Source: Thermoflexibacter ruber (GTDB lineage: Bacteria > Bacteroidota > Bacteroidia > Cytophagales > Thermoflexibacteraceae). From it: a DNA stretch of 64,000 nt. Under the pieces are notes generated by a model. That model was not told where the DNA came from, ran no database searches, and was given only the letters and a program-made list of their open reading frames with translations. The stretch spans positions 1 to 64,000 of the forward strand of contig NZ_FONY01000029.1 of assembly GCF_900113045.1 (NCBI RefSeq). Direction: 5' to 3'. The stretch's first letter is position 1; every line of letters begins with the position of its first letter. Positions 78 through 4,819 of the stretch are shown in pieces. A program made the translations under genes and the position numbers.

Positions 78-126
78 GTCCGCATTTGCAATGCGGACTT
101 TCTTTATTGAGGATTTGCAATCCGAC
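78..126. repeat. Two-hairpin element at the 5' border of Rhs cassette 1
   Basis: A perfect 9-bp inverted repeat (GTCCGCATT / AATGCGGAC, loop TGC) is followed after 12 bases by a second small inverted repeat (GGATT / AATCC, loop TGC). Nearly the same element stands at 1790-1838 in front of the second cassette, and a similarly built element in opposite orientation lies at 28445-28488. The ATG at 91 lies inside the first hairpin, so the nominal start of the first Rhs open frame is made of repeat sequence and may not be a natural start. Confidence 0.75.
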
Positions 127-1248
127 TTTGCAGTTGCAGAACAGCCCGTAACCCATGCAGGGGAAACCGCATGGGAGGAGTTAGCCATAGGCTTTACTAC
201 TACCCAACAAGTCAGGGTAGAGGCATACGTCATCAGCACAGAGCCAGATACAGTGTTTTACACTTGGTTTGATGATTTGAAGATAGAGATTACTGACAAG
301 CCTACGGCTATGGTAGTGCAAGAAAATCACTATTACCCTTTTGGACTCGGCATGAAGGGTTTGGATTATGTGCAGACGGCGAGTAAGGAGGATAAGTTTC
401 AGTTTAATGGCAAGGAAAAGCAGACGGAGTTAAGCCTAAACCACTATGATTTCAGTGCCAGAAGCTATGACTATCAGATAGGAAGAACCACTACGCTTGA
501 CCCTCATGCGGATAGGTATGTGAATGTTTCAGCTTATTCTTTCTTGAATAACAATCCCTTAATCACAATTGATCCAACGGGTAAAGACGGGATTATTATT
601 ATATTTCCTTCATATCAAGCAGATGGTTATCCTTTAACAGGTCATGCAGGTATCCTCCTAATAGATAACAAAACAGGAGTCACTGCCTATTATGAATATG
701 GGCGATACAATGGGGACAGGGGTGAAGTTAGACAACGTCAAACTTCTAAAGTCATAATAGGGGAAGATGGCAAACCCACAATTGAATCACTGAACAAGGT
801 TTTATCACAAATCTCAAAATCTAACAAGGGTAGGCATATTAGTGGACATTATTTTAAAAGTGATAAATTTAATAAAATGAAAACTTATGCTGAAAAAAGA
901 AAGAGGGATAACAAAAATAAAGAAAGAGTCCCTTACAATATTATTTCCAATAATTGTGGTACTTTTGCTTGTGAAGTAGCAAGTGAGGGAAGTTTTTTGC
1001 CTACTTGGAATCTTGGTTCTCCTATTCTTACTGATTTTGTTCTTACCTCTTTTGACCCTACTTACGATGATGTGTATTATTATCCCGGTATTGGTACAGA
1101 TTTTTCAGGAGAGCAGTATAGTGAAAAGGAGAAAAAAGCACAATCTATTAAGCAATTCTTTATTGATTTATACAATAAAACAATTGAAAAAATTAACAAA
1201 ACTGCAGAAATAGAAAATGAGAAAAATCAAAACAAAAAAGATAATTAG
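91..1248 (+). CDS. Orphan Rhs C-terminal fragment with papain-like (permuted NlpC/P60-like) toxin tip
   Basis: This is the 3' end of an Rhs/YD-repeat polymorphic toxin. Residues 13-70 look like the beta-sandwich that precedes the core in Bacteroidota Rhs proteins. Residues 73-165 are the Rhs-associated core (ENHYYPFGLGMKGLD, FNGKEKQTEL, YDYQIGR, NNPLITIDPTGKDG). After the core the sequence is unique. It has a His in TGHAG (H185) and, about 100 residues later, NNCGTFACE (C289). His before Cys with NC-x-FA is the order seen in circularly permuted papain-like hydrolases such as the LRAT and PPPDE groups, so a peptidase or amidase is inferred. The tail is Lys-rich. No Rhs body, YD repeats or signal peptide precede it, so it is an orphan cassette that would need recombination into a full-length rhs gene, or another route, to be delivered. 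The start at 91 lies in a repeat hairpin and is doubtful. The 3' end overlaps the next gene by 32 bases. Confidence 0.75.
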   Translation: MRTFFIEDLQSDFAVAEQPVTHAGETAWEELAIGFTTTQQVRVEAYVISTEPDTVFYTWFDDLKIEITDKPTAMVVQENHYYPFGLGMKGLDYVQTASKEDKFQFNGKEKQTELSLNHYDFSARSYDYQIGRTTTLDPHADRYVNVSAYSFLNNNPLITIDPTGKDGIIIIFPSYQADGYPLTGHAGILLIDNKTGVTAYYEYGRYNGDRGEVRQRQTSKVIIGEDGKPTIESLNKVLSQISKSNKGRHISGHYFKSDKFNKMKTYAEKRKRDNKNKERVPYNIISNNCGTFACEVASEGSFLPTWNLGSPILTDFVLTSFDPTYDDVYYYPGIGTDFSGEQYSEKEKKAQSIKQFFIDLYNKTIEKINKTAEIENEKNQNKKDN

Positions 1249-1612
1249 TATCATTAAACTACTTATATTTAGCCTTTTATATTTATTGTGCATTAGTTGT
1301 GAATCTAATTCACCAGATAAAGTTGTAAGGCATGAAAAAATTCCCAAAGAGGCTAAATGGTATGGTGGTTCAGATGGGGGTGATTGGATATATGTTCGTA
1401 AAAAAATTGCGAAAAACACATTTCTTATAGAAGTTTATAATGATTACACAGGGGAGTTAATTGTTACAGGTAATTTTACAATTTGCAAGTATTGCGACTT
1501 TGTAGATTTGCAAGTCAAAGATTTGTTAACATTAATAGCGTTTTATGATGGAGAAGAAATTTTACTTTCTTCATACTTTGGAGATAAGAGTTGCTTTTTG
1601 GAAAAGAGATAA
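1217..1612 (+). CDS. Putative immunity protein of Rhs cassette 1, lipoprotein-like
   Basis: This 131-residue protein starts inside the last codons of the toxin-tip gene, the usual spacing of toxin-immunity pairs. The N-terminus is basic (MRKIKTKK), followed by a hydrophobic stretch ending in LLYLLCISCES. This resembles a lipoprotein signal peptide, although the residue at -3 of the likely lipidated Cys is Cys and not Leu. The rest is a small, acidic, probably beta-rich domain I do not recognise. Export to the periplasm would fit a toxin acting on the cell wall or envelope. The immunity role is inferred from position only. Confidence 0.6.
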   Translation: MRKIKTKKIISIIKLLIFSLLYLLCISCESNSPDKVVRHEKIPKEAKWYGGSDGGDWIYVRKKIAKNTFLIEVYNDYTGELIVTGNFTICKYCDFVDLQVKDLLTLIAFYDGEEILLSSYFGDKSCFLEKR

Positions 1613-1789: not shown

Positions 1790-1838
1790 GTCCGCATTTG
1801 TAATGCGGACTTTCTTTATTGAGGATTTGTAATCCGAC
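1790..1838. repeat. Two-hairpin element at the 5' border of Rhs cassette 2
   Basis: This is the second copy of the element at 78-126, with arms GTCCGCATT / AATGCGGAC and loop TGT. A C-to-T change in the second hairpin turns the CAA codon of cassette 1 into TAA at 1830-1832, so the open frame from the ATG at 1803 stops after nine codons. Confidence 0.7.
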
Positions 1839-2021
1839 TTTGCAGTTGCAGAACAGCCCGTAACCCATGCAGGAGAAACCGCATGGGAGGAACTGAGCAT
1901 AGGCTTTACCGCCACACAGCAAGTCAAGGTAGAGGCGTATGTAGTTAGCACAGAGCCAGATGTAGCATATTATGCTTGGTTTGATGAGCTGAAGATAGAG
2001 ATTACTGACAAGCCTACGGCT

Positions 2022-2972
2022 ATGGTAGTGCAGGAGAATCACTACTATCCCTTCGGCTTGGGAATGAAGGGCTTGGATTGGACTGCACCAAGTCCTAATA
2101 CAGAGAATAAGTTTACCTTCAACAGCAAGGAGAAGCAGACTGAACTTGGGCTGCATTGGCACGACTACGGAGCGAGAAACTATGATGCTCAGATAGGGAG
2201 ATTCTTTAAAGTAGATAGGTTTGCGGAGAAATATTACAACTTTTCACCATATCAATATGCGGCAAATAATCCAATCAGATATATTGATGTAAATGGAGAT
2301 AGCATTTGGTTTTCAAAAGACGAAAATGGAAAATGGACTTTTAATATTGTGGGTGCAGTTTATGACCATTCTGGTGAACATGATACAGATGAGTTAGCAA
2401 ATAATTTACAAGCAAGATTTGCAAACAAATTGAGAGGTGGTTTCAAAAAGTTAGGTATTGGTGTAAATGTTCAGATACGAGGCGTAAAATCCATGAAAGA
2501 TGTCAAAAAAGGAGACCATTTGTGGATAGTAGATAAAAGGAAAGAAGTTGAGCGTTTTTACAAAGTAATTGAAAGGAAAAAATTAGCAGAAAACACAATA
2601 CTCAATGGCTATACAGCAGACGGACATATGACTGCTCATATTAGTTCATCAGCTGACGATATAATCTCCACAATGATTCATGAAGGGGGGCACATGCTGG
2701 GATTAGGGCATATTGAAGATGAAGATGGTAAAGTATCTGAATGGAGTACAAATCCAATGTCGTATGGCTCTTGGAGAATATCTGGTTTTAGTGAACAACA
2801 GATACAAACTATAGATGATTGGAATGAAAATGGGATGCTTAACACACAAGGGAAAATTGATAGAGTACTAAGGGGGTATAGTGGATATCAAACTCCTATA
2901 AAGAGTGAAAAGCCTCGTAGGGGAATTCTTGAAGGAATTGGATTCTTTTTTAAGACTGGTAAATTTAACTAA
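2022..2972 (+). CDS. Orphan Rhs C-terminal fragment with metzincin-type zinc protease tip
   Basis: The frame is open from 1833, after an in-frame TAA at 1830, but the first ATG is at 2022, just before the Rhs core. Residues 1-95 are the core (ENHYYPFGLGMKGLDW, FNSKEKQTELGL, YDAQIGRFFKVDRF, YAANNPIRYIDVNGDS), clearly homologous to the core of the first cassette. The tip from about residue 95 is unrelated to tip 1. It contains HEGGHMLGLGH (H220, E221, H224, H230), the full metzincin HExxHxxGxxH zinc site, and NPMSYG with M246 as a likely Met-turn. The inferred activity is a zinc endopeptidase acting on target-cell proteins. Without the upstream beta-sandwich and YD repeats it is an orphan cassette. 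A gene for a small membrane-anchored protein follows after 70 bases. Confidence 0.75.
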   Translation: MVVQENHYYPFGLGMKGLDWTAPSPNTENKFTFNSKEKQTELGLHWHDYGARNYDAQIGRFFKVDRFAEKYYNFSPYQYAANNPIRYIDVNGDSIWFSKDENGKWTFNIVGAVYDHSGEHDTDELANNLQARFANKLRGGFKKLGIGVNVQIRGVKSMKDVKKGDHLWIVDKRKEVERFYKVIERKKLAENTILNGYTADGHMTAHISSSADDIISTMIHEGGHMLGLGHIEDEDGKVSEWSTNPMSYGSWRISGFSEQQIQTIDDWNENGMLNTQGKIDRVLRGYSGYQTPIKSEKPRRGILEGIGFFFKTGKFN

Positions 2973-3042
2973 ACATTTTTCAGGTGTTTCATAAAATGAT
3001 TAAGCACCTAATCTTTATTAAATTTAATAATTTCAATCTATC

Positions 3043-3648
3043 ATGAAAACTGCAAAAATATTAAGTATATTGTCCATTATAATAGTCACTTTTATATTTT
3101 ATTTCCTCGAGGAATTTTCTTATTATTATCATACAGTAGAATCTTTTATAGGGATAGATATATTAGATGATAATAAATATTATCATATTTTAGAAGGGCA
3201 ACCTGATATGCATAAAATTGATTTAACAACATTTTCTTTAATAACACCAAAATCTTTTCGCTATATAGCACGGAACGGAGAGGATATGTTTTTCGGGAAT
3301 ATTCTAAACAATAGAAATGGTATATATTTTGAATCAGGATTAAATGAAAATCGGAGTGTACCACTTACGCCGGAGGAAAGCTATATAAAATATGGACAAT
3401 ATAGAATCAATAATTTCTACAATATAGTTGTTGATACGCTTATTCGGGAACATGATACAATCATTAAAAAATTAGCTATAAAAAAGGGGTTGCCCAAAAG
3501 AATATATCTTTCTTTTATTATCAAACCCAAAGCAGCAATGACTATGCATTCTTACTTAACAATGATTGCATACAAAATAAATAAAGATGATGAAGATATT
3601 ATATTGAAGGTACTTGCCAGTGTAGAAATCCCACCCTGTTCGCCTTAG
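3043..3648 (+). CDS. Putative immunity protein of Rhs cassette 2, membrane-anchored
   Basis: This 201-residue protein has one N-terminal hydrophobic segment (about residues 5-22) with a short basic head (MKTAKI) and no signal-peptidase II box. It is probably anchored in the inner membrane with the rest in the periplasm. I recognise no domain. It lies directly behind the metzincin tip and before the cassette tail, the position of an immunity gene. An inhibitor of the neighbouring protease is the obvious guess, but nothing in the sequence proves it. Confidence 0.5.
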   Translation: MKTAKILSILSIIIVTFIFYFLEEFSYYYHTVESFIGIDILDDNKYYHILEGQPDMHKIDLTTFSLITPKSFRYIARNGEDMFFGNILNNRNGIYFESGLNENRSVPLTPEESYIKYGQYRINNFYNIVVDTLIREHDTIIKKLAIKKGLPKRIYLSFIIKPKAAMTMHSYLTMIAYKINKDDEDIILKVLASVEIPPCSP

Positions 3649-3672
3649 AGTTTAGCACAAGCGACTCTAAGG
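3643..3672. terminator. Hairpin at the end of the cassette 2 immunity gene
   Basis: A 9-bp perfect inverted repeat (CCTTAGAGT / ACTCTAAGG, 12-base loop) includes the stop codon of the preceding gene. There is no T-tract, so it may be only a structural element. Confidence 0.35.
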
Positions 3673-3760
3673 CCGTTCTATCTGCCAATCTGTGATTTGC
3701 GTGCAGGTACGAAGCATGAGAGATAGATTTTATTTATTGATAGTCAGTAGGTTATAATTG
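3673..3760. repeat. Conserved tail of Rhs cassette 2
   Basis: Homologous to about 1668-1755 behind cassette 1 (GATTTGCGTG, GAGAGATAG, TTGATAGTCAGTAGGTTATAAT in part). It marks the 3' border of the second cassette. Confidence 0.6.
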
Positions 3761-3796
3761 GGGAAATCAAATTTTATACGCTTCGCCGTTGCGACT

Positions 3797-3835
3797 CCAT
3801 TCCAGATTTTTCATTCCAGATTCCTCATTGATATT
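3797..3835. repeat. ATTCCAGATT intergenic repeats
   Basis: Two close copies of ATTCCAGATT-type sequence. The same word recurs in the gaps at 9728-9897, 10976-11030, 11366-11432 and 18730-18818, always between genes. Confidence 0.5.
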
Positions 3836-3857
3836 TCCTCATTTTTCCCTATCTTTG
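3828..3857 (+). promoter_or_regulatory. Bacteroidota-type promoter of the Rpn gene
   Basis: TTG at 3828-3830, a 19-base spacer and TATCTTTG at 3850-3857 fit the TTTG / TAnnTTTG consensus. The ATG follows 20 bases later, at 3878. Confidence 0.55.
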
Positions 3858-3877
3858 TCTAAAATAAAAGTAGGCAC

Positions 3878-4729
3878 ATGATAGCACAAAAATACATCAA
3901 TCCATTCACAGATTTCGGCTTCAAGAAAATCTTTGGGGAGGAAGCAAACAAAGACCTGCTCATTGATTTTTTGAACGAACTGCTCACAGACAAGGGCAAA
4001 ATCATTGATTTGACCTACCTCAAAAGTGAGCATTTGGGGACTACTGACTTGGATAGAAAGGCAATCTTTGACCTATATTGTGAAAACGAAAAAGGAGAAA
4101 AGTTCATTGTGGAAATGCAAAGAGCAAAACAGGACTATTTTAAGGATAGAAGTCTTTATTACGCTACCTTTCCCATTCAAGAACAGGCGAAGCGAGGCGA
4201 TTGGAACTATCAATTGAAAGGGGTTTATTCCATAGCCATTACCGATTTTCTCATAGATGATGACAAGGCAAACAAAAGCAAGATAGTGCATGACATCAGA
4301 CTGATAGAAAAGGAAACACAAAAAATATTTTATGACAAACTTCGCTTTATCTATGTAGAAATCAAGAAGTTTGACAAGACCTTAGAGGAGATAGAAACAC
4401 ATTTTGACAAGTGGCTGTATGTGCTAAAAAACTTAGTAAAAATAGAGGAGATACCAGCTAAGTTGCAAGAAAAAGTGTTTAAAAAGTTGTTTCAAATCGC
4501 AGAGATTGCACGTTTTGATGAGAAGCAGTTGCAATCTTACCGAGATAGCGAAAAGAACTATTTGGACTTTACTGCCTCCTTGGAAACTTCGTTTAATGAA
4601 GGGAAAATTGAAGGAAAGGTAGAAAGAGAAATAGAAATAGCTAAGAATATGCTAAGAAAGGGCTTTGACAGTGAAACCATTGGAGAGGTAACAGGCTTAA
4701 CCCTTGAGCAGATAGAAGCATTGAGGTAG
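3878..4729 (+). CDS. Rpn family recombination-promoting nuclease / putative transposase (PD-(D/E)XK)
   Basis: This 283-residue protein begins with the family signature KYINPFTDFGFKKIFGEEANKDLLIDFLNELL. The PD-(D/E)XK core is visible as IFDLYCENEKGEKFIVEMQR (D65, E79, Q81), followed by the conserved RSLYYATFPIQEQAKRG. The C-terminus (about 235-283) is a charged helical region ending in TGLTLEQIEAL, a short repeat-type tail typical of the family. Rpn proteins of E. coli are DNA endonucleases that raise RecA-independent recombination. Expanded copies in this phylum are often called transposases, but no terminal inverted repeats are visible here. Its own promoter lies just upstream. Sitting next to Rhs cassettes, it could help their rearrangement, but this is only an inference from position. 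Confidence 0.85.
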   Translation: MIAQKYINPFTDFGFKKIFGEEANKDLLIDFLNELLTDKGKIIDLTYLKSEHLGTTDLDRKAIFDLYCENEKGEKFIVEMQRAKQDYFKDRSLYYATFPIQEQAKRGDWNYQLKGVYSIAITDFLIDDDKANKSKIVHDIRLIEKETQKIFYDKLRFIYVEIKKFDKTLEEIETHFDKWLYVLKNLVKIEEIPAKLQEKVFKKLFQIAEIARFDEKQLQSYRDSEKNYLDFTASLETSFNEGKIEGKVEREIEIAKNMLRKGFDSETIGEVTGLTLEQIEALR

Positions 4730-4756
4730 GAGGAATTATAAACTTTCATTTTGCCT

Positions 4757-4793
4757 TCTCATTCGGACTCGGCATGAAGGGCTTAGACTATGG
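4757..4793 (+). pseudogene. Relic of an Rhs core block
   Basis: About 37 bases between the Rpn gene and recX match the part of the Rhs core that encodes FGLGMKGLDY (TCGGACTCGGCATGAAGGG... ). Nothing of the core before or after it is present. It looks like the scar of a third cassette or of a recombination event. Confidence 0.55.
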
Positions 4794-4819
4794 GCTTTCA
4801 CTTTCTAAAAGTTTAACTA

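Follow-up and report, generated by a model that had tools for sequence, protein, structure and literature searches.

The window analysed here, a whole stretch of 64,000 nucleotides that forms the first 64 kb of the Thermoflexibacter ruber contig labelled C27, begins inside a repeat region of Rhs cassettes. The cassette of interest consists of an open frame at 1833-2969, in which a match to the Rhs_assc_core model runs into a protease-like tip, followed by a small gene (here referred to as the 3043 gene) and a tail repeat (Table 1). A stop codon (TAA) at about 1830 precedes the open frame, which has no start signal, signal peptide, export signal or delivery region, and the Rhs core portion ahead of the tip is a remnant of about 90 to 150 residues. 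The initial annotation had placed the tip behind an Rhs core; full-length Rhs is absent at this locus, and that description applies to the remnant only. A second cassette, also complete, is located upstream of it. Because only a core remnant is present, without a full-length carrier that has an export signal, the unit is filed as an orphan (displaced) Rhs cassette.

Table 1. Features of the cassette region at the start of the window.
Feature	Position	Strand	Basis
Upstream orphan cassette, Rhs core remnant and TseH-like tip	91..1248	+	PF25218 TseH, E 5.5e-27
Putative lipoprotein immunity gene of upstream cassette	1217..1612	+	N-terminal hydrophobic stretch, Cys at its end
Rhs core remnant, in frame with the metzincin-type tip, without delivery region	1833..2314	+	TIGR03696, E 1.3e-15
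Putative metzincin protease tip P0002 (predicted toxin domain)	2289..2969	+	Motifs; eight-member profile against reprolysins, E 5.6e-7
Predicted zinc-binding site HEGGHMLGLGH	2679..2711	+	Sequence; HExGH core invariant in 8 aligned relatives
Predicted Met-turn NPMSYG	2751..2768	+	Sequence; [NG]xM in relatives
Probable immunity protein, N-terminal TM anchor and predicted PsbP/Mog1-like domain	3043..3648	+	AF2, Foldseek, cassette position
Cassette tail repeat, common to other cassettes	3676..3758	+	Second copy at 1672-1754, behind the first cassette
PDDEXK_2 (Rpn-type) gene after the metzincin cassette	3878..4729	+	PF12784, E 1.7e-73

The variable tip directly follows the conserved core, and sequence shared with other cassettes drops sharply at 2305-2314. 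The window core is 94% identical over 272 bp to the core of an M91 cassette on contig C79, a match that stops at 2314, and 85% identical over 306 bp to contig C111, where the match stops at 2305. On the other side, the tail repeat recurs at about 15 other sites at 72-87% identity, nearly all of them after a cassette's downstream gene. The 3043 gene lies between the tip and this shared tail; since the tail follows the 3043 gene as well as the small genes of other cassettes, the 3043 gene falls inside the shuffled unit. A search of the T. ruber genome with the core gave 31 matches (about 31 core fragments) on 12 contigs, and on the core-bearing contigs, units made up of a core remnant, a tip, a small gene and a tail stand in arrays. 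Contig C98 carries one long Rhs frame (2107 codons) with an export signal-like start. Stretches of N occur inside some of the cassette contigs (L034, about 3640-4760; L037, about 2640-4590).

The tip itself comprises about 227 residues; HEGGHMLGLGH occupies residues 131-141 and NPMSYG residues 155-160. The third His of the zinc motif is separated from the Met by 16 residues, a spacing that falls in the range known for metzincins, and the earlier description of a complete HExxHxxGxxH site with a normally spaced Met-turn thus stands. Among 200,000 shuffled versions of the tip sequence, 15 contained the HExxHxxGxxH string. With the reprolysins/adamalysins (M12B) and matrixins (M10) the tip shares the zinc site, the Met-turn and a profile match to solved reprolysins. 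Single tip sequences, by contrast, score below the curated cut-offs of the Pfam M10 and reprolysin models, so no named peptidase family can be assigned. For a profile built from two tip sequences, the PDB chains listed were all metzincins, with E values of 0.014 or worse, and a profile of eight members aligned to solved snake venom reprolysins across its positions 39-173 (135 positions; E 5.6e-7). The AF2 model of the window tip, made from a two-row alignment, was poor (pLDDT 46), and a Foldseek search with it returned nothing at E 0.001 or better, its top matches being reprolysins that were not significant. Because the eight-tip profile matches reprolysin structures, the sequence comparisons support the assignment of the window tip, within its Rhs frame, as a metzincin protease. 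Matches to PSV_trans_reg_dom, PDC-M60A and a histidine-triad lipoprotein, all below cut-off or weak, were taken as chance.

Whole-genome profile searches recovered more metzincin tips than pattern searches. A pattern search with the tip across GTDB contigs and viral contigs found one relative only, in an Rhs gene of the Bacteroidetes MAG SZAS-70, and a search of plasmids found none. In total, 15 metzincin tips in Rhs frames were identified in 12 genomes, a distribution that spans Bacteroidota. Four belong to T. ruber (the window, C68 [L041], C88 [L123] and C26 [L124]), and those outside it are the SZAS-70 tip (L045/L056), which is carried by a long Rhs frame, L089-L093, L106, L107, L109, L110 and L112. 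Most relatives keep the zinc motif as HExxHxxGxxH/D; altered forms are HELGHNMNLEH in L090 and HEAGHTAWLRH in L124, and one additional residue precedes the last His in L092 and L109. Met-turns among the relatives include NFMSY, NMMGR, NLMHQ, NLMR and GIM. In the C68 tip (L041:2928-3536, minus strand), which has a lipoprotein as its neighbour, the motifs are HEIGHTLGLED and GIM, and the core-to-tip frame is broken near 3512-3536, either truly or through an assembly error. The C88 and C26 tips (L123:1024-2148 and L124:1054-2169) occur in short genes that combine the metzincin tip with a signal peptide and a very short stretch of Rhs core, and both are surrounded by repeated genes of another family (MLSGKE... 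proteins). At L106:1619-2305, an extra tip with HEILHTMG adjoins the metzincin tip in an array, with a weak profile match (E 9e-4).

Metallopeptidase Rhs tips are already a known kind. HExxH metallopeptidase tips behind RHS repeats, Bacteroidetes included, have been described as Tox-MPTase1-5 and as HopH1/NleD-like domains (Zhang et al. 2012, PMC3482391). The window tip family resembles these Tox-MPTase and M91 tips in being a metallopeptidase placed after Rhs, but it differs from them in its metzincin HExxHxxGxxH site and Met-turn, and the Tox-MPTase and M91 models matched none of the eight tips at E 0.01. In the papers found on metzincins and polymorphic toxins, titles and opening abstract lines describe no such tips, and a literature search found no paper that brings Rhs, matrixins and toxins together. 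Four separate M91 (NleD/HopH1-like) tips coexist with the metzincin tips in T. ruber, at L033, L034, L036 and L041, each with a lipoprotein-like gene after it. By a census of the genome, tips of the metzincin type and of M91 number four each, whereas recognised nuclease tips number two, which runs counter to the initial expectation that metzincin tips would be uncommon compared with nucleases. Position also bears on whether the metzincin is a toxin at all. In polymorphic toxins, most PVC-type metallopeptidases serve as releasing peptidases (PMC3482391), and many secreted metzincins occur in the phylum, both of which would fit a peptidase for self-processing (release) or a secreted protease of general function. 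However, no domain follows the metzincin, which occupies the toxin position behind the core, and other copies of that core carry TseH, M91 or nuclease tips in its place; we regard a nontoxin role as very improbable.

The 3043 gene product has 201 residues; its N-terminus carries one hydrophobic stretch, which the model shows as a helix spanning residues 2-33, and it lacks a lipobox, in agreement with its earlier description as a single-anchor membrane protein. In its AF2 model (mean pLDDT 72), the TM helix is followed by a beta-rich domain, with a helix at the C-terminus. Foldseek placed PsbP/Mog1-like structures best (PsbP, E 2.1e-3, probability 1.0, TM-score < 0.5), with 3lyd and BT_1490 also in the list and Tsi3 and SciW lower down, whereas by sequence the product matched no solved structure. 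The model is therefore suggestive of a PsbP/Mog1-like fold after the anchor, a likeness to the PsbP/Mog1-like proteins in predicted fold without a match in sequence. An Eag-like chaperone role, prompted by this fold, was rejected because the 3043 gene follows the tip and its product has a membrane anchor; SciW/Eag chaperones work on the N-terminal part of the carrier and not on the tip.

Among 390 genomes of the order, 42 encode homologues of the 3043 product, and 22 of the 129 genera are represented. Members have either a lipobox or a TM anchor, and by these comparisons the gene is one of a widespread lipoprotein/membrane family. At 36 other loci of the family, neither an Rhs core nor an HExxHxxGxx[HD] frame was present within about 1.5 kb on each side. 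In one genome set searched for both, genomes with 3043 homologues had no relative of the tip, and the two families occur together in the window only. Conversely, the neighbours of the 14 other metzincin tips all fall outside the 3043 family (14/14), so that the search for homologous pairs in other genomes found none. The suggestion in the initial annotation that the 3043 product could represent a new, dedicated family of protease inhibitors is not supported, because its homologues are common without a metzincin neighbour. Two family members (L069 and L080) adjoin SUKH immunity genes, so the family may have a role in such loci. Two others (L064 and L066) lie beside attC-like hairpin repeats, which suggests integron-type cassette arrays.

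This distribution is a ground for supposing that the tip is a metzincin toxin and the 3043 gene a passenger of the lipoprotein family, or immunity against some other toxin. The family is widespread without toxin neighbours, no relative sits beside any other metzincin tip, and the members next to SUKH genes could mean that it serves immunity loci in general. Against this, the position between tip and shared tail is that of the immunity gene in neighbouring cassettes, the anchoring of the product suits a protease that acts in the envelope, and related tips in any case have neighbours that for the most part share no relationship with each other. We consider a passenger gene unlikely, though it is the alternative to which we give most weight.

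Small proteins that are exported or anchored are encoded after nearly all of the metzincin tips. No family common to the metzincin-tip neighbours was found, and a single pair, L045-L124, is weakly related (E 0.004). By a test for a hydrophobic N-terminus, which is crude and has a high background rate, 13 of 14 neighbours passed, compared with 17 of 39 background genes; with the L109 neighbour added, judged by eye, the count is 14 of 15 (Fisher p 7e-4). A related pattern is seen across tip types within T. ruber. The six first-recognised peptidase/amidase tips (TseH-like, metzincin and four M91) have envelope-directed neighbours, whereas two DNase tips (NucA/NucB and AHH) and one further, unassigned tip are followed by genes for soluble SUKH or Imm11 proteins (Fisher p 0.012, a post hoc comparison of small numbers). 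We propose this as a testable rule, in which the immunity partner would be anchored in the envelope for protease tips and cytosolic for nuclease tips. Judging by where it lies in the cassette, how it is anchored and what is seen across tips, the 3043 product is likely to be the immunity protein for the window tip.

We therefore favor, as probable, a reading in which the cassette is an orphan Rhs toxin-immunity unit that encodes an envelope-acting metzincin toxin and, in the 3043 protein, its inhibitor. The orphan tip would be joined by recombination to a full Rhs gene, as in the orphan modules of Salmonella, and the resulting protein would be exported by a Sec-type route. The tip would then cut envelope (periplasmic) proteins of competing bacteria. 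In the producing cell, the 3043 protein would be anchored in the inner membrane; its PsbP/Mog1-like domain would face the periplasm and bind and block the tip there. Orphan Rhs modules of Salmonella are activated by recombination (PMC3967940), and the window unit resembles them in its displaced core fragment, tip and immunity gene without start or export signals (PMC3967940). Unlike in Salmonella, the orphans of T. ruber number in the tens, lie over many contigs and come with shared tails and Rpn-type genes, and their recombination is inferred.

The same lack of a start signal, export signal and delivery region could instead mark a decayed leftover without present function, from which neither toxin nor immunity protein is made and which never recombines, and the broken frame of the related C68 tip points in the same direction. 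Yet the tip and 3043 frames are both intact, all metzincin active-site residues are kept, and the flanks retain 85-94% homology to other cassettes, so we judge decay to be unlikely.

The closest functional parallel to the proposed toxin-immunity unit is provided by the Tpe1-Tpi1 metallopeptidase effectors, which kill from the periplasm and whose immunity proteins are periplasmic, lipoprotein or TM-anchored (PMC6899460). Like Tpe1-Tpi1 and the VgrG2b C-terminal domain-PA0261 pair, the window unit would combine a zinc metallopeptidase toxin domain with a periplasm-exposed immunity protein. The Tpe-Tpi family has T6SS delivery and one conserved immunity family as its own features; the window system differs in having a metzincin, a Bacteroidota Rhs cassette as carrier, and related tips whose neighbours are mostly unrelated. 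Most of the listed metallopeptidase tip families of polymorphic toxins are without an assigned immunity protein (PMC3482391), and the window tip together with its 14 relatives makes up a metzincin tip family that can be searched for, each of its sites offering a candidate inhibitor. Extending the proposal to the whole family, such that Bacteroidota-wide metzincin Rhs tips would be envelope-acting interbacterial toxins, each with an independently recruited envelope-anchored neutralizer, is a step we take only tentatively. Should the proposal hold for the window, the PsbP/Mog1-like 3043 protein would be a new kind of metzincin inhibitor, a class of natural proteins in which there is general interest.

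Two further elements recur around the cassettes of this genome. Copies of the Rpn-type PDDEXK_2 gene, 88-95% identical and mostly located on contigs with Rhs cassettes, are present at such cassettes in the window and at L033, L034, L036, L038 and L041, with further copies on contigs C54, C56 and C57. The 3' end of these copies continues directly into the Rhs core motif FGLGMKGLD, and a residual core fragment remains at about 4762-4795, after the window copy. A REP-like hairpin repeat, agtccgcatttgcaatgcggact, occurs in the window at 68-123 and 1780-1835 and also at L036, L042 and L043, both ahead of cassettes and elsewhere; in the first cassette of the window, it is translated through as part of the ORF.
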